Assembly: GCA_025353765.1 (NCBI GenBank)
Contig: JANXOD010000016.1
Coordinates: forward strand, 62,001 to 126,000
Reading direction: 5' to 3'
DNA: 64,000 nt
Source: Sphingobacteriales bacterium
GTDB lineage: Bacteria > Bacteroidota > Bacteroidia > Sphingobacteriales > Sphingobacteriaceae
Of the stretch, positions 7,097-50,879 are shown piece after piece. A program made the translations under genes and the position numbers. Position 1 is the first letter of the stretch; every line of letters starts with the position of its first letter. A model generated the notes under the pieces. The model made no database searches. It was not told the DNA's origin and saw only the letters and a program-made list of their open reading frames with translations.

Positions 7097-8446
7097 TTAA
7101 ATAGCATTTGTAAATTCAGCATAATTTGCTAAACCGTAATTTCTTTCTAAAGCTTCTTTGGGATGAGTAACATGCCATTCAAATTCATCACGGAAATGAC
7201 GAATTGCACTGGCAACAGGCCAGGCAGCAGCATCTCCTAAAGGACAGATCGTATTCCCTTCTATCTTTTTAGCTACATCAACCAATAAGTCAATATCACT
7301 CATTTTACCATGGCCGTATTCCAGGCGATGCAGTACTTTTTCCATCCAGCCTGTCCCTTCACGGCAAGGTGAACATTGTCCACAACTTTCATGATGGTAA
7401 AAACGTGCATAATTCCAGGTATTTCGTACAATACATTGGTCTTCATCAAATGCAATAAAACCACCCGAACCCAGCATGGATCCAGATTGGAAACCACCAT
7501 CAGATAATGATTCATAGCTCATTAAGCGAGGTTCTCCAGTTATTGTTTTCAAAATCAAATTAGCTGGTAAAATTGGAACTGATGAGCCTCCGGCAACAAC
7601 TGCCTTTAATCTTTTGCTATTTGCAATGCCACCACAATAATCATCCGAGTAAATAAACTCTTCAACAGGCAAACCCAACTCTATTTCATATACACCTGGT
7701 TTATTTATATTCCCTGATGCTGATATGAGTTTGGTTCCTGTACTTCTGCCGTTTCCAATTTTTGCATATTCTTCACCACCATCATTGATAATTGGAACAA
7801 CAGCCGCAATTGATTCTACATTATTTACTACCGTTGGGCAACCCCAAACTCCGGAAATAGCAGGAAATGGTGGTTTAATACGTGGGTTACCTCTTTTTCC
7901 TTCCAATGATTCTATCAGGGCAGTTTCTTCACCACAGATGTATGCACCACCACCAGGTTGTACATAAAGTTCGAGGTCATAACCTGATCCTAAAATATTT
8001 TTGCCTAAAAAACCTGCATTTTTTGCTTCCGCGATTGCTTTTTCTAATATCCTGATCTGTGGCATCATTTCACCACGAACATAGATATAGGATACTTTAG
8101 CACCTAAGGCGAAACTGGAAACAATCATTCCTTCGATCAAAAGATGAGGAAGATAAGTCATCAGGTAACGGTCTTTAAAAGTTCCTGGTTCAGATTCATC
8201 CGCATTGCAAACCAGGTAACGTGCCTTACCTTCGGGCTTGGCTAAAAAGCTCCACTTCATCCCGGTAGGAAAACCTGCACCGCCACGCCCGCGTAAACCC
8301 GATTTTTTTACTTCTTCCACCACATCATCAGGCGACATAGATTTCAGCGCTTTTTCAACCGCACGATATCCTCCCTGCTGACGATATACATCGAAAGTGT
8401 TTATTCCTGGAACATTAATATTTTCTAATAATAACTTGCGAGCCAT
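7097..8446 (-). CDS. nuoF: NADH-quinone oxidoreductase subunit F (NuoF)
   Basis: The NADH- and FMN-binding subunit of complex I, 449 residues. Motifs: 'GLRGRGGAGFPTGMKW' (FMN/NADH site, near residue 50), 'YICGEETALIESLEG', and the C-terminal [4Fe-4S] (N3) site 'SCGQCSPCREGTGW' with the distal cysteine in 'TICPLGDAAAW'. It is preceded by an unusual repeat-containing 80-bp gap after nuoE and followed by the inserted M48 gene instead of nuoG. Confidence 0.97.
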   Translation of the reverse strand: MARKLLLENINVPGINTFDVYRQQGGYRAVEKALKSMSPDDVVEEVKKSGLRGRGGAGFPTGMKWSFLAKPEGKARYLVCNADESEPGTFKDRYLMTYLPHLLIEGMIVSSFALGAKVSYIYVRGEMMPQIRILEKAIAEAKNAGFLGKNILGSGYDLELYVQPGGGAYICGEETALIESLEGKRGNPRIKPPFPAISGVWGCPTVVNNVESIAAVVPIINDGGEEYAKIGNGRSTGTKLISASGNINKPGVYEIELGLPVEEFIYSDDYCGGIANSKRLKAVVAGGSSVPILPANLILKTITGEPRLMSYESLSDGGFQSGSMLGSGGFIAFDEDQCIVRNTWNYARFYHHESCGQCSPCREGTGWMEKVLHRLEYGHGKMSDIDLLVDVAKKIEGNTICPLGDAAAWPVASAIRHFRDEFEWHVTHPKEALERNYGLANYAEFTNAI

Positions 8447-8448
8447 GT

Positions 8449-8524
8449 TTTTTAGATGTGAGATCTGAGATTTGAGATTTAAGGCTTATTGCCCATTCCC
8501 TTATCTCATATCTATATTCTCAAA
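8449..8524. repeat. Hairpin-forming simple repeat between nuoE and nuoF
   Basis: The gap is made of short near-tandem words of the type GAGATTT/GAGATCT on the left (8457-8481) and their reverse complements (TCTCATATC, TCTCAAATC) on the right (8502-8526). The best perfect arm is GATTTGAGA paired with TCTCAAATC. The transcript would fold back on itself. Similar elements occur at three other co-directional gaps in this window. Confidence 0.7.
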
Positions 8525-8526
8525 TC

Positions 8527-9036
8527 TTATTTCTTTAATTCTTGTATCAACTGATCTACTTTTTCTTCTGTTAAATGCTCATGAAATGTATATTCGGGGC
8601 CAATTTGTAAAACCGGTGCCATTCCGCAGGCAGCTAAACACTCCACACCTCTCCAGCTAAATAAGCCGTCGGAAGTAACTTCGCCTTCTTTAACTCCCAA
8701 TTGTTTCTCCATATAGTCCATTATTTTTTCGGCGCCTACCAAACAACACGGGCCTGTGCGACAAACTTCCAGAACGTATTTCCCTTGAGGTTTTAAAAAA
8801 TACATACTATAAAAGCTGGCTACTTCATACACTTCAATGGGTTTAATGTCTAAATGCTCTGCAACCTTATCCATTGCCGGAACACTTACCCAACCGTATT
8901 CTGCCTGCACTAAATGTAAAATAGGCAATAACGCAGCTTTCTGTTTTTCTTCCGGATAACGGGTTACAATTTCATTAAACTCAGTGATCAGTTTTGATGA
9001 AAATTCAATTGGCTGTTCTTCTGTAACCTTAAGCAT
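8527..9036 (-). CDS. nuoE: NADH-quinone oxidoreductase subunit E (NuoE)
   Basis: Thioredoxin-like [2Fe-2S] (N1a) subunit partnering NuoF, 169 residues. The four cluster cysteines are in 'CRTGPCCLVGA' and 'CLAACGMAPVLQI'. The N-terminal helical region ('LLPILHLVQAEYGW') is typical. Its start overlaps the nuoD end by 8 bp. It is separated from nuoF by the repeat element at 8449-8524. Confidence 0.96.
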   Translation of the reverse strand: MLKVTEEQPIEFSSKLITEFNEIVTRYPEEKQKAALLPILHLVQAEYGWVSVPAMDKVAEHLDIKPIEVYEVASFYSMYFLKPQGKYVLEVCRTGPCCLVGAEKIMDYMEKQLGVKEGEVTSDGLFSWRGVECLAACGMAPVLQIGPEYTFHEHLTEEKVDQLIQELKK

Positions 9037-10240
9037 CTAACTCTCCTGCAATTACGTTTAAACTACTCATATTAATGATGGCATCCGACAATAACATGCC
9101 TGCACTCATTGGGGCGTACATTTGATAATTGATAAAACTTGGTCTCCGGAAATGTAAACGATATGGCGACCGGCCGCCATCATTAACCAAATAAAAGCCT
9201 AATTCGCCGTTTCCACCTTCAACTCCATGATATACTTCTGTTTTGGGAGTATCAATTTCGCCCATTACAATTTTGAAATGGTAGATCAGGGCTTCCATAT
9301 TATTGTATACTTCTTCTTTTGGAGGAAGGTAAAACTCAGGAACATCCGCATGGAAAATTCCTTTCGGTTCTTTTTCTATTTTTTGTAAAGCTTGTTCTAT
9401 TATTCGCAGACTTTGCCAGATCTCTTCATTACGAACAATAAAACGATCGTAAACATCGCCTGTTGTTCCTACCGGGATCTCAAAATCAAAATCTTCGTAA
9501 GATGAATAAGGTTCGTTCACACGCACATCATAATCTACACCCGTGGCACGTAAAATTGGTCCACTCCAGCTGTAGTTTAATGCAACTTCAGGATCAACTG
9601 GTGCTACACCTGAAGTACGTTCGATAAAGATACGGTTGCGATTAAATAAGGATTCAAATTCCTTCAAAATGGGCGGGAACTTGATTAAGAATTTTTTGAT
9701 TTTTGCAAAAGCAATATCATTAAAGTCTCTCTCGAAACCACCAATACGGCCAATATTGGTAGTTAATCGTGCGCCACAAACCTCTTCATAAATTTCATAG
9801 ATATGCTCACGCTCTTCCATTAACCATAAGAAACCTGTAAAAGCGCCAGTATCAACACCTAAAATTCCATTACAAATTAAGTGATCTGAAATTCGTGCTA
9901 ATTCCATAATGATCACCCGAAGATAATCCACACGTTTAGGCATTTGAATATTGAGCATTTTCTCAACCGTCATGTGCCAACCCATATTATTAATTGGTGA
10001 TGAACAGTAGTTCATGCGATCTGTTAATGGGGTTATCTGGTAAAATGGCCGATGTTCAGCTATTTTTTCAAATGCACGATGGATATATCCGATAGTAGAA
10101 ACACCACTCACAATTCGCTCGCCATCCAATTCCAGTACATTCTGGAAAACTCCATGTGTAGCCGGATGCGTTGGACCCAGATTTAAGGTGATGGTCTCCT
10201 TTTGCGGATCGTTATCTATAAAGACTGGATGATTTGTCAT
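9029..10240 (-). CDS. nuoD: NADH-quinone oxidoreductase subunit D (NuoD)
   Basis: The 49-kDa-type quinone-site subunit, 403 residues. Motifs: 'NLGPTHPATHGVFQ' at the N-terminus (quinone-site histidine), 'GYIHRAFEKIAEHR', and the C-terminal 'SDAIINMSSLNVIAGELD'. NuoC and NuoD are separate here, unlike the fused form of enterobacteria, and overlap by 4 bp. Confidence 0.97.
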   Translation of the reverse strand: MTNHPVFIDNDPQKETITLNLGPTHPATHGVFQNVLELDGERIVSGVSTIGYIHRAFEKIAEHRPFYQITPLTDRMNYCSSPINNMGWHMTVEKMLNIQMPKRVDYLRVIIMELARISDHLICNGILGVDTGAFTGFLWLMEEREHIYEIYEEVCGARLTTNIGRIGGFERDFNDIAFAKIKKFLIKFPPILKEFESLFNRNRIFIERTSGVAPVDPEVALNYSWSGPILRATGVDYDVRVNEPYSSYEDFDFEIPVGTTGDVYDRFIVRNEEIWQSLRIIEQALQKIEKEPKGIFHADVPEFYLPPKEEVYNNMEALIYHFKIVMGEIDTPKTEVYHGVEGGNGELGFYLVNDGGRSPYRLHFRRPSFINYQMYAPMSAGMLLSDAIINMSSLNVIAGELDA

Positions 10241-10740
10241 CTTCCGAAAAAATAATCTTTTTTATCAACTCTGTTTGGATCTTCCAATGGATGCTCTTTG
10301 CGCATTGGAAAAACCTTCATATCATCCACATTTAAAATACGAACTAAATTAGGATGGCCTTTAAATATGATCCCAAAGAAATCATAAGTTTCCCGTTCCA
10401 TCCAGTTTGCACCTTCCCATAAGATTGTTGCAGTTGGAATTTTAGGATGATTCCCATCTAAAAAAACCTTTATTCGTACCCGGATATTATTAGCTAAACT
10501 ATGAATATGGTAAATCACACCAATAGATAATTTTTGTTCGGGGATATGAATTCCTGTTATATCTGTCAGGTAATTAAACTTAAGTTCTTTGTCTTCTTTT
10601 AAAAAAGTAAGAACTTCTATGATATGCTCCGGCTTCGTTTCGAATGTTACTAATCCAAACGGTTCTGCAGGAACAGAGATTTGATCTGCAAAACGTGCAG
10701 TTATTTTTTGTAAAACAGCCTGATTGCTTATTTTGCCCAT
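10237..10740 (-). CDS. nuoC: NADH-quinone oxidoreductase subunit C (NuoC)
   Basis: The 30-kDa-type peripheral-arm subunit, 167 residues. The family signature 'WMERETYDFFGIIFKGHPN' lies near residue 117 and is followed by 'MRKEHPLEDPNR' at the C-terminus. Overlaps of 1 bp with nuoB and 4 bp with nuoD imply coupled translation. Confidence 0.96.
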   Translation of the reverse strand: MGKISNQAVLQKITARFADQISVPAEPFGLVTFETKPEHIIEVLTFLKEDKELKFNYLTDITGIHIPEQKLSIGVIYHIHSLANNIRVRIKVFLDGNHPKIPTATILWEGANWMERETYDFFGIIFKGHPNLVRILNVDDMKVFPMRKEHPLEDPNRVDKKDYFFGR

Positions 10741-11282
10741 TACTGGATTCCGTATCTGCTTAAAAGTTCTTTATATTCGGGTGAATTTCTTCTGCGAAGT
10801 GATTCATTCTTAACCAATTCCTGTATCTTATTAAAACCATCAATGATAGCTTCGGGCCTTGGAGGGCATCCGGGTACGTACACATCAACAGGAATAATCT
10901 CATCGATTCCCTGCAAAACAGAATAGGTATCAAATATTCCTCCGCTGCTTGCACATGCTCCAACAGCAATTACCCAACGAGGCTCTGCCATTTGAATATA
11001 TACCTGCTTTAAAACCGGGCCCATTTTTTTTGCGATTGTACCCATTACCATCAGTAAATCTGCCTGGCGAGGAGAAAAACTGGGTCTTTCTGCTCCAAAA
11101 CGTGCAAAATCGTAGTGAGAACCCATAGTTGCCATAAATTCTATTCCGCAACAAGAAGTAGCAAAAGGTAAAGGCCATAATGAGTGCGAACGTGCTAAAC
11201 CCACCACCTTATCTATTGATGTTGCAAAGAAGCCTGATCCTTCTACACCCGGAGGTGCTTCTACTAATTTTACATCACTCAT
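10740..11282 (-). CDS. nuoB: NADH-quinone oxidoreductase subunit B (NuoB)
   Basis: PSST-type subunit that binds cluster N2 and reduces quinone. Cluster ligands are in '[10 protein letters not shown]' (adjacent cysteines), 'GACASSGG' and '[12 protein letters not shown]'. I place the start at 11282 ('[12 protein letters not shown]'), where family similarity begins. The frame stays open to an upstream ATG at 11321, adding 13 residues that look unrelated. The product is about 180 residues. Very well conserved. Confidence 0.96.
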
Positions 11283-11385
11283 AATCAAAGAAAAAAGCTC
11301 ATCTAAACATCGTTTAAACAAGCCTCAAAATTACACAAATTAAATTTTTGTTTGGTTTAAAGAATTATTTAGAAACAGTCTAATG

Positions 11386-11763
11386 TTATTCCCAATCTAA
11401 TGCGCCTTTTTTAATAATGTAGATAAAGCCCAGTAAAAGTGTTCCCATAAAAATGAACATTTCAATCATTCCCTTTATTCCCAAATCTCTGAAATTGACT
11501 GCCCAAGGATACATAAATATCACCTCTACATCAAACAGTACAAATAAAATAGCTACTAAAAAATATTTAATAGAGAATGGCTGACGGGCATTTCCCACAG
11601 ATTCTATTCCTGATTCAAAGGGTACTAATTTGTCGGATGTTTTCCGCCTCGGGCCAATTAAGTGTGTAACAACCATTGTCATTATAACAAATCCTAAGGC
11701 AACCAGCATTTGAAATATAATTGGCAGGTAATTTACTGCCGTACTTTGTGCTTCCATTATCAA
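11386..11763 (-). CDS. nuoA: NADH-quinone oxidoreductase subunit A (NuoA)
   Basis: First gene of the nuo operon: a three-helix membrane subunit of about 125 residues. The family signatures are 'YESG'-like 'PFESGIESVGNARQPFSIKY' followed by 'LFDVEVIFMYPWA' with its conserved acidic pair. Start could be at 11763 or at the second Met (11757, 'MEAQS'). It lies just downstream of a promoter-like element and of the terminator of the upstream TPR gene, so the nuo operon probably begins here. Confidence 0.95.
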   Translation of the reverse strand: MIMEAQSTAVNYLPIIFQMLVALGFVIMTMVVTHLIGPRRKTSDKLVPFESGIESVGNARQPFSIKYFLVAILFVLFDVEVIFMYPWAVNFRDLGIKGMIEMFIFMGTLLLGFIYIIKKGALDWE

Positions 11764-11775
11764 ACTTTATCGGGA

Positions 11776-11802
11776 CAAATATAAAAAAGAACCCCAAAGC
11801 AA
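11776..11802 (-). promoter_or_regulatory. Putative nuo operon promoter
   Basis: On the minus strand TATATTTG (11783-11776) matches the Bacteroidota -7 consensus TAnnTTTG. A TTG (11802-11800) lies 16 bp upstream, slightly short of the usual 17-23. The site overlaps the terminator hairpin of the preceding TPR gene, so termination and initiation would be packed into about 45 bp. Confidence 0.45.
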
Positions 11803-11824
11803 TAATGCTTCAGGGTTCTTTTAT
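11783..11824 (-). terminator. Terminator of the exbB-tonB-TPR operon
   Basis: On the minus strand AAGAACCC...GGGTTCTT flanks an inner GAAGC/GCTTT pairing and a short loop, and is followed by a run of T (TTCTTTTTT). It separates the TPR gene from nuoA. Confidence 0.8.
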
Positions 11825-11836
11825 TAAAAAATTATA

Positions 11837-13516
11837 CTATTTACTTCCGCCTGCTCCTTTTAATGCCTTTAAAGCACTCATAGCATATGGGTTAGCAGGA
11901 TCTAATTCGGTTACCTTATTAAAATACTCAATTGCTTTAGCTTTATCTGTTTTTTGATAATATGCTCCAAGATTAGTATAAGCTTCTACTAAATTATTTT
12001 TTACAGCAGGTGAAGGAGCTTCTGCTTTAGCGGTTACCAACTCTACATACTTTTCAAAATAAGGAACCATTAATCCTTTTGAAGCCTGCTCATCATCTAA
12101 TTGCTTACCTACACGTGCACGATATAAATAAGCATCGGGACTGGTTGGTGATCTTTGTATTACATAACTAAACAAAGTGTCGGCTTTTACTAATAGATCT
12201 TTACTTGGATTTAATTTTGCATTATTTTGTGTTGCATAATCAAAATAATAAGATAATCCCAAGTAAAAACTGTCATAAACAGTAGTTTTTGATCTGGGAT
12301 TGTTAACTGCCAATTCATAGGTTTTTGAAGCTTCTCCATATTTTTTCGCCTTAAACAAGGCAAGTCCTATCTCACTCATTACTTCCGCATTAGTAGAGTC
12401 TAATTCTACAGCTTTTTTCAAATTATTCACACCCTCGGTTTCTGAACCCGGAGTTTTCATTTGAGCTCTTCCCAAGTACAAATAATCTTTTGCTATAATC
12501 CGTTTAGGTTCAACTTTAGCGATAAAGTCTTTTAGTGCTTGCACACTACCTGCATAATTTCCATTTTCATATGATGAATAAGCTAAATAACGCAATACTT
12601 TCGGATTCACTTTATCAATTTTTGCCATTTCATTGGCTTCTGTTTCCAGCTCTTTATATTTTTTTGCAAGTATTAAGAAATCTGCATGACGGATACGCGA
12701 TTCTAAAGATCTGTCTGTCAAATCCATGTATTTCTCGTAATACTGTAAAGCCTGATTTATTCTTTCATTATATTTATTTGGCTCTGCATTTGCCCATAAG
12801 TAATAGGTTTCTGCTAACTCGCGATAAGCAGGTCCATAATTAGGGTCTAAAGCAATTACACTGTTAAATTCTTCGGCAGATTCCGGATATGCTTTTGACA
12901 TTTTATTAATTACACCCAATTCTACTTTTGAACGCAACAATGTTTTATTTAGATCAAAAGCAGTACGGTAAGCGCTATAAGCTTCGCTATTTTTTAGTTG
13001 AGCACGATATGCATCCCCTAGTGCAAGATATACTTCAGCATCTTTAGCATTAATGACTTTAGCTTTTTCTAAATTAAGTGCGGCATCTATATTAGGTTTT
13101 GCTGCCTTAATATATGCTTTTCCAATAAATAAATACGTTTTCTGATCCTTTTTATCTGTTAGAGGTATTGCCTGATCAAAACTAAGTTTAGCAGCAGGTT
13201 CGTTATTTTCTGCAAGAGCAACTGATCCTAAACCAACATAATTCAAAGCAAATTTTGGGTTTGCAGTAACACCCTGATTGTAAGTCAGTTTTGCCGAATC
13301 TACATCATCTGTTTTAAGATAAACATTACCTAAATAGAAATAATTTTCAGCATTAGCAGGCTGTGAACTTGTTAGTGTTTTTAATATGGTTTTACCTTTT
13401 TGATATTGCTCGGCATCAATGGCTTTTTTTGCGTCAGCTAAGCTTTGTGCAAAAACGGCTGAACCTACTAAAATTAACCCTAAGGTTGCTTTTATTATCT
13501 TTTTCATCATTTCCAT
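11837..13516 (-). CDS. Periplasmic tetratricopeptide-repeat protein
   Basis: A 559-residue protein with a signal peptide (about residues 1-24, 'GSAVFAQS') followed by TPR helices over nearly its whole length, for example 'AENYFYLGNVYLKTDDVDSA', 'VYLALGDAYRAQLKNSEAY' and a C-terminal 'AKAIEYFNKVTELDPANPYA'. It probably scaffolds protein complexes in the periplasm. It is the last gene of the exbB-tonB operon, after the PstS-like lipoprotein. I recall the order TonB system - PBP-like lipoprotein - TPR protein as common in Bacteroidota; the exact function is not established by sequence. Met4 ('MKKIIK') is an equally plausible start. Confidence 0.88.
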   Translation of the reverse strand: MEMMKKIIKATLGLILVGSAVFAQSLADAKKAIDAEQYQKGKTILKTLTSSQPANAENYFYLGNVYLKTDDVDSAKLTYNQGVTANPKFALNYVGLGSVALAENNEPAAKLSFDQAIPLTDKKDQKTYLFIGKAYIKAAKPNIDAALNLEKAKVINAKDAEVYLALGDAYRAQLKNSEAYSAYRTAFDLNKTLLRSKVELGVINKMSKAYPESAEEFNSVIALDPNYGPAYRELAETYYLWANAEPNKYNERINQALQYYEKYMDLTDRSLESRIRHADFLILAKKYKELETEANEMAKIDKVNPKVLRYLAYSSYENGNYAGSVQALKDFIAKVEPKRIIAKDYLYLGRAQMKTPGSETEGVNNLKKAVELDSTNAEVMSEIGLALFKAKKYGEASKTYELAVNNPRSKTTVYDSFYLGLSYYFDYATQNNAKLNPSKDLLVKADTLFSYVIQRSPTSPDAYLYRARVGKQLDDEQASKGLMVPYFEKYVELVTAKAEAPSPAVKNNLVEAYTNLGAYYQKTDKAKAIEYFNKVTELDPANPYAMSALKALKGAGGSK

Positions 13517-29957: not shown

Positions 29958-30053
29958 GTTTATACTCATGAGTTCGCTCCTTTGTGAGCTGCTCCTGATG
30001 GTTCATGTATATAATTTGTTTGAGTATTACAAAAGCTGTTCCAAAGATTCAGT

Positions 30054-30158
30054 CAAATGCTATCGTCGTGTATCCAAATGCTGTCGGATCACATCCAAAT
30101 GCCTTCATCATGCGCCCAAATGCTATCGTCGTGTATTCAAATGCTGTCGGCAAAGTAT
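30054..30158. repeat. 21-bp tandem array, five units, upstream of miaE
   Basis: Five consecutive units of exactly 21 bp start at 30054, 30075, 30096, 30117 and 30138. Each begins CAAATGC and most continue with YRTCG; units 1 and 4 differ at one base. The array ends 25 bp before the miaE start. Because 21 is divisible by three, all three + frames are open as heptapeptide repeats (for example 'PNAIVVY', 'PNAVGSH', 'PNAFIMR'). I take this as a DNA-level repeat, not a gene. Confidence 0.85.
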
Positions 30159-30183
30159 CCAATGAAGTTTTTACCTTTGCTTT

Positions 30184-45261: not shown

Positions 45262-45593
45262 AATTTGAGATATTTATAGTTTTACTCTATTTCAAGGTTT
45301 TCGCCTTTCCCTTACTGCTTGCTAAAACATTAGTATAAATTTAGGGAGTATATTTTTTCATTATGCCAAGCGTTACTTGGCATAATGAAAAAACAATTTG
45401 TTGATATGTATTGTTAGCAAATCTCAGAAATAAGGATAGGCTTTCACCAAGAACATTGTGTAATTTAAATACACTATAAAAACCTTATTCTGATCAGCAT
45501 CCTGGCATCATCAAACTTTATGTAAGTTATTTAGTTTATTTAGTTAAAATAATTACCATCTCTTTTATAAATGCATATCATCTATTACTATAT
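45262..45593. other. Intergenic region with a perfect hairpin between divergent genes
   Basis: No gene seen in 332 bp between the lipoprotein (minus) and the XRE regulator (plus). The main feature is the 18-bp stem at 45353-45393. A weaker pair, CAGAAATAAGG (about 45426) with CCTTATTCTG (about 45483), also exists. Confidence 0.6.
45353..45393. repeat. Perfect 18-bp inverted repeat with 5-base loop
   Basis: Bases 45353-45370 (TTTTTTCATTATGCCAAG) pair without mismatch with 45376-45393 around CGTTA. The T run is on the 5' side and the A run on the 3' side on both strands, the reverse of an intrinsic terminator. It may therefore be a protein-binding palindrome. It lies 92 bp upstream of the lipoprotein gene. 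Confidence 0.85.
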
Positions 45594-45794
45594 ATGGGAT
45601 TAATTCTCAGAAAATTACGGATGGAAAAAGGCTATTCTCAACAGCATATAGCAAATTGCCTGAATATAAGTAGAAATGCTTATATGGCTTGGGAAAGCAA
45701 TAAAGTAAATTTATCTATAAGGCAGATAATACAGATTTGTGAACTGTATAATGTAAAATTTAGTTCTTTTGTGGAAGAATACCTGGAAAAATAA
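45594..45794 (+). CDS. XRE-family helix-turn-helix regulator
   Basis: A 66-residue protein that is little more than one HTH_XRE domain: 'ILRKLRMEKGYSQQHIANCL' followed by 'ISRNAYMAWESNKVNLSIRQ' and 'IIQICELYNVKFSSF'. A typical minimal Cro/CI-like DNA-binding protein. It lies immediately upstream of the 231-bp repeat array and downstream of the hairpin at 45353. Confidence 0.9.
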   Translation: MGLILRKLRMEKGYSQQHIANCLNISRNAYMAWESNKVNLSIRQIIQICELYNVKFSSFVEEYLEK

Positions 45795-45847: not shown

Positions 45848-46078
45848 TATTTAATACTCAATGCCGAGTATTAAAGCATTGTTTTCGAATATTTAACATT
45901 TATTATCAAACATTAAAACTTCATTATCGATGCCTTAATATTTACAAATAAATACTAAGGCATCGATATTAAACATTTGATATTCATTGATGAATATTAA
46001 AGTATGGCTTTCAAATATTTAATATTTATTACAAAGTATTAAAGCTCGGTTTTTGTATATTTAATAATAAGTTCCATT
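45848..46078. repeat. Eleven-unit array with exact 21-bp period
   Basis: Eleven contiguous 21-bp units begin at 45848, 45869, 45890, 45911, 45932, 45953, 45974, 45995, 46016, 46037 and 46058. Most start with TATTTAA (type A: units 1, 3, 9, 11) or TATTAAA (type B: units 2, 8, 10), which alternate over much of the array. These heptamers are reverse complements with a one-base offset. Units 3 and 9, and units 2 and 8, are near-identical, giving a 42-bp higher-order repeat. The array fills the gap between two DNA-binding-protein genes and ends 16 bp before the second. Confidence 0.85.
45925..45968. repeat. Long hairpin inside the 21-bp array
   Basis: TATCGATGCCTTA (45925-45937) pairs with TAAGGCATCGATA (45956-45968). 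After one A/C mismatch, TATTTA (45939-45944) pairs with TAAATA (45949-45954) around CAAA. That is 19 pairs with a single mismatch, at about the middle of the array. Confidence 0.8.
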
Positions 46079-46094
46079 AAATAAACATCAACTT

Positions 46095-46463
46095 ATGATT
46101 ATTGGGAGAAAATACACCATGCAGGGAGTGCATACCGGGGCACTTTTAGAAAAAAAACTAATAGAGCTACACATTAGCAAAGCTGAATTAGGCCGGCGAA
46201 TAAAGCGGTCGGGCAGTACCATTTTAAGTTTTACCAGGCAACCCAGTATTCAAACAGCTGTATTAACAGAAATATGCATCGCTTTAAAGTATAATTTTTT
46301 CAATGATATTATGGATGCCCTACCGCCGGAATTAAAGGAAACACCAGCTGTAGCAGAGCCTGTAATAAGCGCTGAAGCTATAAAAGATAGTGTACAACTG
46401 GAATGGCTGAGACAAGAAAATGCGTATCTCAAAAAGATGATTGATGTGCTGGCGAAAAAATAA
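46095..46463 (+). CDS. HTH-type DNA-binding protein with C-terminal coiled coil
   Basis: A 122-residue protein (114 if started at Met9, 46119, 'MQGVHTGALLEKKL'). The N-terminal half looks like a lambda-repressor-type HTH ('LIELHISKAELGRRIKRSGS', 'TEICIALKYNFFNDIM'). A Pro/Ala-rich linker is followed by a short leucine-containing helix ('QLEWLRQENAYLKKMIDVLA') likely to be a coiled coil. It begins 16 bp after the array and is a candidate reader or regulator of it (inference). Confidence 0.8.
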   Translation: MIIGRKYTMQGVHTGALLEKKLIELHISKAELGRRIKRSGSTILSFTRQPSIQTAVLTEICIALKYNFFNDIMDALPPELKETPAVAEPVISAEAIKDSVQLEWLRQENAYLKKMIDVLAKK

Positions 46464-50225: not shown

Positions 50226-50792
50226 CTATTTCAAAAAATCATTAACCAATTTTTCCGCCTCCTCACAAGCAATATTAAGATCGAAATTTTTTAAAATTAC
50301 ATCAAAACGGTCGGCATACTTCAGCTCATTCTTAGCCTTTGTAATTCGCTCAGCTAGCTTTATCACATTATCGGTTCCCCGGCTTGTGAGGCGCTCAATC
50401 AATACTTCTAATGATGGTGGTTGTACAAAAATGGCTAAGGCCCAATCGCCGAATTTCTTTTTTAAATGTAAACCTCCTTCTACATCAATATCAAATATGA
50501 CGTGTTTGCCTTCAGCCCATATACGTTCAATTTCTGAACGTAATGTGCCGTAAAAAGTACCGGAATAGACTTCTTCAAATTCAACAAACTCTTTCTGAGC
50601 AATTTTATGCAGAAACTTTTCCTGGGAAATAAAATAATAATCTTTGCCATGAACCTCATCTCCTCTTTTAAGACGGGTTGTAGCCGAAATAGAAAACCTG
50701 AGAGCAGGTATTTTTTTTAACAGATGATGTACAATAGTGGTTTTACCTGCACCCGATGGAGCTGAAAATATAATGAGTTTGCCTTCTTGCAT
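50226..50792 (-). CDS. gmk: Guanylate kinase
   Basis: Phosphorylates GMP to GDP. 188 residues: P-loop 'SAPSGAGKTTIVHHLL' at about 10-25, GMP-binding 'FSISATTRLKRGDEVHGKDY', 'FVEFEEVYSGTFYGTLRSEI' and 'VIFDIDVEGGLHLKKKF'. Between yicC and nadD, separated from each by a repeat element. Confidence 0.96.
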   Translation of the reverse strand: MQEGKLIIFSAPSGAGKTTIVHHLLKKIPALRFSISATTRLKRGDEVHGKDYYFISQEKFLHKIAQKEFVEFEEVYSGTFYGTLRSEIERIWAEGKHVIFDIDVEGGLHLKKKFGDWALAIFVQPPSLEVLIERLTSRGTDNVIKLAERITKAKNELKYADRFDVILKNFDLNIACEEAEKLVNDFLK

Positions 50793-50800
50793 GATTGGTA

Positions 50801-50879
50801 TTGAAGGTTGAAGGTTAAATTTATAAGGTGTAGATTAGCTTGGAAAGCCTACAACTCACAACATACAACCCACAACTTA
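50801..50879. repeat. Hairpin-forming simple repeat between yicC and gmk
   Basis: Left part GGTTGAAGGTT then TTTATAAG (50820-50827 approximately); right part repeats ACAACTCACAACATACAACC and ends CTTATAAA. TTTATAAG/CTTATAAA pair perfectly. The right half is a run of ACAAC words with period 7-8. It overlaps the last codons of yicC. Confidence 0.65.

Follow-up and report, generated by a model that had tools for sequence, protein, structure and literature searches.

We read the eleven contiguous 21-bp units at positions 45848-46078 of the window (the whole analysed stretch of 64,000 nucleotides), on balance, as one of about 50 intergenic minisatellite arrays of this genome, in which unit length is fixed, unit sequence varies by locus, and register is kept, perhaps as a scaffold. 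The array very probably belongs to the previously described class of repeats with constant size and variable sequence. It thus gives a view of a genome-wide, already described class of repeats, and its significance differs from that proposed in an earlier, sequence-only reading, which took it for an undescribed local system of the flanking helix-turn-helix (HTH) proteins. The arrays lie on several contigs in intergenic positions, keep an exact period, are depleted in indels, share unit families and composites, and are absent from the congener sites examined.

Structure of the array

The array observation was correct and statistically strong. Autocorrelation, the check suggested with the earlier reading, placed identity at multiples of 42 bp far above shuffles: it reached 62% at lag 42, 66% at lag 126, 56% at lag 84 and 48% at lag 21, against a baseline of ~33% in dinucleotide shuffles. 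The lag-42 identity was matched at any lag by 0 of 2000 shuffles, and the lag-21 identity at some lag by 18 of 2000. Because identity was higher at lag 42 than at lag 21, the repeat is properly described as built from dimers of 42 bp. Wraparound alignment to the 42-bp consensus yielded 58 mismatches (~24% divergence) and 0 indels, confirming the exact spacing of eleven contiguous units, with no phase-changing indel. A 7-bp subperiod was also present (z ~2.4, lags 7 and 14), and the array was the strongest of the 7/14-bp-multiple signals in the window.

Two details of the earlier description held in part. The heptamers TATTTAA and TATTAAA do alternate with unit parity, but the heads are degenerate in units 4-7 (CATTAAA, GCCTTAA, TACTAAG, CATTTGA); similarly, the 42-bp superrepeat was borne out, but the unit pairs 3/9 and 2/8, said to be near-identical, share only 17 of 21 positions. 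Since at least four stops fall in every frame of the array, as they do in its relative on contig C35, its retention of register is not a reading-frame effect. We also discarded the idea that the arrays encode heptads. Translation of many sister arrays yields 7-aa repeats (EIDKLRA, LDIKSMA), but such an open frame arises by chance: several have at least one, as expected for a 7-codon repeat, and no frame is free of stops in either the array or its C35 relative. The units are contiguous and have no unique spacers of the CRISPR kind. A CRISPR array was seen in a congener (L105, G001:C32, ~9608-11910), with a repeat, GTTTAAGAGACCCTTTTAATTTCTACTATTGTAGAT, that resembles type V-A (Cas12a) repeats.

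Table 1. Features of the window around the 21-bp arrays (strand "." where none applies)
Feature	Position	Strand	Remarks
Second 21-bp array	30045..30159	.	Unit CAAATGCTATCGTCGTGTATC, unrelated; intergenic, adjoins a MiaE-like gene
Hairpin	45353..45393		18-bp stem, A/T runs flanking, between the gene for the 314-aa lipoprotein-like protein and the 45594 HTH gene; likely a bidirectional terminator
XRE/Cro-type HTH protein (HTH_19/HTH_3)	45594..45794	+	66 aa; flanks the array
Eleven-unit 21-bp array	45848..46078	.	Noncoding; superrepeat of 42-bp dimers in which TATTTAA and TATTAAA heads follow unit parity
Perfect 10-bp inverted repeat	45850..45875	.	TTTAATACTC / GAGTATTAAA, within the array
Near-perfect hairpin	45925..45967	.	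~19-bp stem, TATCGATGCCTTA...TAAGGCATCGATA, array centre
Protein with weak HTH_26 similarity	46095..46463	+	122 aa; coiled-coil-like C-terminal tail

Arrays of the same period across the genome

We scanned 883 kb of the same genome (the window and 41 further stretches, about a third of 2.83 Mb) for periods of 7 to 60, later extended to lag 130. There were 15 calls at lag 21, 15 at lag 42 and six at lag 7, while the other lags from 8 to 60 not divisible by 7 had 0-3 each (mean 0.2 per lag). Sixteen intergenic arrays with a 21/42-bp period were recovered, or 18 per Mb, which extrapolates to ~50 (51) for the 2.83-Mb genome, provided that the sampled stretches are typical of it. The array is therefore no local one-off, given these 16 and the second array, with an unrelated unit, in the window itself (Table 1). 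A DNA search of the genome additionally located a related TATTAAA-type array on contig C35, between genes for an ICMT-type methyltransferase and an SPFH/Band 7 protein.

All 16 arrays are intergenic, and the orientation of their neighbour pairs (four convergent, four divergent and eight tandem) fits random intergenic placement. Neighbours include genes for thymidine kinase, cytochrome c, succinyl-CoA ligase, an S46 peptidase, kynureninase and an ABC ATPase, among others, and no common function was found among those checked. HTH genes stand on both sides at two arrays, the one at 45848-46078 and L072. Two paralogous proteins of ~203 aa and uncharacterised function, encoded at L049 10446-11057 and L060 2218-2829, each adjoin a 21-bp array.

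Unit sequences are mostly unrelated between loci, with small families shared: the 45848-46078 array with C35; L049a with L054 and with the L049b tail; and L051 with the tail of L081. Some arrays (L049b, L081) combine units from two families, L081 having one L051-type unit. As these array ends (L049 19435-19475, L081 1868-1920) carry units of another locus's family, the pattern suggests that units may move between loci. In an all-against-all BLAST of the arrays with 300-bp flanks, there were no shared flanks; matches were confined to arrays or array edges, except for a single match of 31 bp and the gene with paralogues at L049a and L060. A MITE origin was rejected on this basis. Heptamer repeats were likewise rejected as the source of all arrays, there being no 7-bp subperiod outside the TATTAAA type. 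Intergenic heptamer arrays are themselves frequent in this genome (L076 5268-5415, L063 14121-14231, L056 18626-18743, and window positions 8443-8549 and 50761-50876) and in the genus (L104 and L083 in congeners), in line with the SPADE survey.

Spacing is kept while sequence drifts

Cyclic 42-bp alignment of the 16 arrays gave 638 mismatches and 10 indel events, versus 332 and 33 in control noncoding repeats. As controls we took noncoding repeats whose units have other lengths, together with a 21-bp array of 10/11-bp substructure; most come from congeners, and one is a heptamer array of the same genome. The contrast (Fisher P ~3e-8) was weaker against the heptamer controls alone (P 0.002), and for the 45848-46078 array by itself (58:0) P was 0.014 with the full control set and 0.08 with the heptamers only; the effect size is uncertain, as the controls are few, hand-picked and mostly of shorter units prone to slippage. 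The direction of the contrast favours constraint on register, and the earlier claim that spacing is kept while sequence drifts is supported, now genome-wide.

This depletion bears on the possibility that the arrays are neutral minisatellites, produced by a replication or recombination process of the lineage that prefers 21-bp amplification, so that the generator sets the unit length and the arrays have no function. Such an origin is a serious but tentative alternative. It agrees with the syntenic congener sites that have no arrays, with the lack of both gene association and orientation bias, and with the mutually unrelated sequences of most loci; yet a diverging neutral array would be expected to lose register, and here 638 mismatches accompany 10 indels. 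We also know of no bacterial process that fixes a 21-bp unit, which we count against it.

A constraint on register could instead reflect intrinsically curved DNA, as 21 bp is two helical turns and the bends of in-phase units would sum. We consider this very unlikely, and the earlier appeal to curvature as the cause of the phasing was not upheld: neither W nor AA/TT was enriched at the 10.5-bp harmonic relative to column permutations (z -0.5 and -0.6), and phased A-tract curvature was accordingly dropped. Across arrays there was also no enrichment of a common motif and no common subperiod, the 7-bp subperiod missing from most 21-bp arrays. As neither the 10.5-bp harmonic nor a common motif is enriched, nothing in the DNA points positively to a ligand shared by the arrays.

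Inverted symmetry and folding

The inverted symmetry claimed for the 45848-46078 array is real, with a self-reverse-complement match of 110 bp at 73% in addition to the stems in Table 1. As DNA the array folds with z -6 relative to shuffles, and with z -4.3/-5.3 relative to column-permuted arrays. It could accordingly be supposed that the element is transcribed or acts as a hairpin, either as a repeat-derived small RNA or as a cis structure for the 46095 gene, and transcription has been reported for the 52-nt repeats of B. coagulans (PMC8161180). However, a general excess of secondary structure was not found across arrays, most others folding no better than their column-permuted versions (mean z ~-0.8), and Rfam returned only sub-threshold matches, none at the gathering score. 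We regard an RNA or hairpin role as very unlikely.

Flanking genes

The array lies on a 407-kb contig between the two genes of Table 1, with the gene for a lipoprotein-like 314-aa protein and carB among its other neighbours. Of the two HTH proteins described earlier, one with a coiled coil, the 45594 product is indeed of XRE/Cro type, but the HTH_26 similarity of the 46095 product is weak (E 0.0027, below the cutoff) and its tail is coiled-coil-like. The latter's ORF starts 17 bp past the array end, or at an internal ATG at 46119. The array could be an operator for one or both proteins, forming a local autoregulatory switch: an HTH gene lies on each side, the 46095 ORF follows within 17 bp, the inverted-repeat symmetry exceeds that of column-permuted arrays, and two HTH genes also flank L072. 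Against this, the sequence-related C35 array has ICMT and SPFH genes and no HTH neighbour; among the neighbours checked at other arrays, HTH genes occur only at L072; beside carB in relatives there is no association of HTH genes and array; and the 46095 protein had no match among the 19 congeners searched. Linkage of an array to the same regulator gene was found neither in relatives nor at sister loci. An operator is thus unlikely in our view, and adjacency and inverted symmetry make binding by the flanking HTH proteins possible at the 45848-46078 locus only. Nor do the surroundings resemble a plasmid iteron or a heptad partition site (omega, parS type), since the neighbours are the XRE-type HTH protein, the 314-aa lipoprotein-like protein and carB, with no adjacent initiator or ParA/RHH partition gene.

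The undescribed local system proposed earlier is not supported: HTH genes are missing beside most sister arrays, the combination of array and HTH pair is absent beside carB in congeners, a three-unit TATTWAA motif occurs in 4 of 296 Bacteroidota genomes, and the class has already been published.

Comparison with relatives

We recovered carB-anchored loci from 18 congeners (carB identity 77-80%). Downstream of carB there was no 21-bp array or HTH pair wherever the flank was captured, a few loci ending at contig ends, and the captured flanks hold other genes. The conserved 21-bp periodicity at orthologous loci on which the earlier proposal had been made to depend is therefore absent beside carB in these congeners. 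In 560 kb sampled across five congeners, and leaving coding-like repeats aside, we saw a single 21-bp array that is not a heptamer repeat, in G018. This array (L085, G018:C10, 6105-6236) has ATATAACCAG/ATATAACCAAA units of 10 + 11 bp, adding to 21 bp, each one helical turn.

The three-unit TATTWAA motif at 21-bp spacing, found in those 4 genomes, compares with 3, 1, 1 and 0 genomes at spacings of 24, 20, 18 and 22, counts too few for a spacing preference outside this genome, and a conserved TATTWAA array system was rejected. A contig search with a four-unit motif returned many 21-bp arrays from many phyla, but a 21-bp period is built into the motif searched for, and several hits are coding or of low complexity. 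Given the absence at congener carB sites and the 4 of 296 genomes, the arrays at the examined sites are recent or lineage-specific, rather than a conserved regulator-operator system. Since they are absent from examined congener sites, the genus can do without any function they may have.

Proposed role of the arrays

We suggest that local duplication generates the units and drives their turnover, that a unit family occasionally spreads between loci, and that length variants out of helical register are removed by selection. Because 21 bp is two turns of B-DNA, the array would then offer a same-face scaffold to a putative architectural (nucleoid-type) protein that polymerises and is weakly sequence-specific. 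This scaffold mechanism is put forward tentatively, as what we take to be the simplest function compatible with a fixed period, drift and few indels; a neutral origin, from a generator biased towards 21 bp, comes close to it in likelihood. More speculatively, and with little expectation that it will hold, the genome might encode an architectural protein for this purpose, which congeners lack or do not use; largely indifferent to sequence, it would polymerise on DNA in steps of 21 bp and select for in-register arrays at ~50 intergenic sites, the TATTAAA-type inverted-symmetry pair being its highest-affinity sites.

Why some bacterial genomes hold dozens of fixed 20-21-bp arrays without a common sequence is an open question. 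The present case adds a Bacteroidota example in which the arrays have diverged enough to show that register, not sequence, is retained, and the sequenced congeners, without arrays at the examined sites, open the question to comparative and experimental test.

Comparison with known repeat systems

The BrickBuilt MITE minisatellite of Porphyromonas gingivalis (23-nt unit, ~19 loci per genome; PMC4596501) is likewise a Bacteroidota repeat whose intergenic, contiguous units span about two helical turns. It has, however, a single unit sequence and a shared leader and tail with terminal inverted repeats, whereas the 300-bp flanks here held no such leader or tail and are not shared. The SPADE survey described intergenic heptamer repeats of prokaryotes (PMC6344855), and the resemblance is that the genus has many 7-bp arrays, that 21 is 3 x 7, and that the 45848-46078 array keeps a 7-bp subperiod; unlike those repeats, most 21-bp arrays here have none.

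The closest match is the class of Subirana and Messeguer, with "constant repeat size (20-21 nt), variable sequence", mostly noncoding and in species-specific families, for which the function is open and protein polymerisation and nucleoid stabilisation have been proposed (PMC8161180). The arrays have every testable feature of the class: a unit length held at 20-21 bp across numerous loci within a single genome (15 lag-21 calls in 883 kb), locus-specific units with small species-specific families, and noncoding, intergenic positions (16 of 16 intergenic, with stops in every frame at 45848-46078). As in that class (PMC8161180), the unit is about two helical turns, the arrays are scattered and species-specific, and several unrelated or loosely related families share a genome. 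Unlike the published repeats, those described here belong to a Bacteroidota host, have more diverged units (~24% mismatch) and frequently form a 42-bp dimer, and their indel depletion has been measured.
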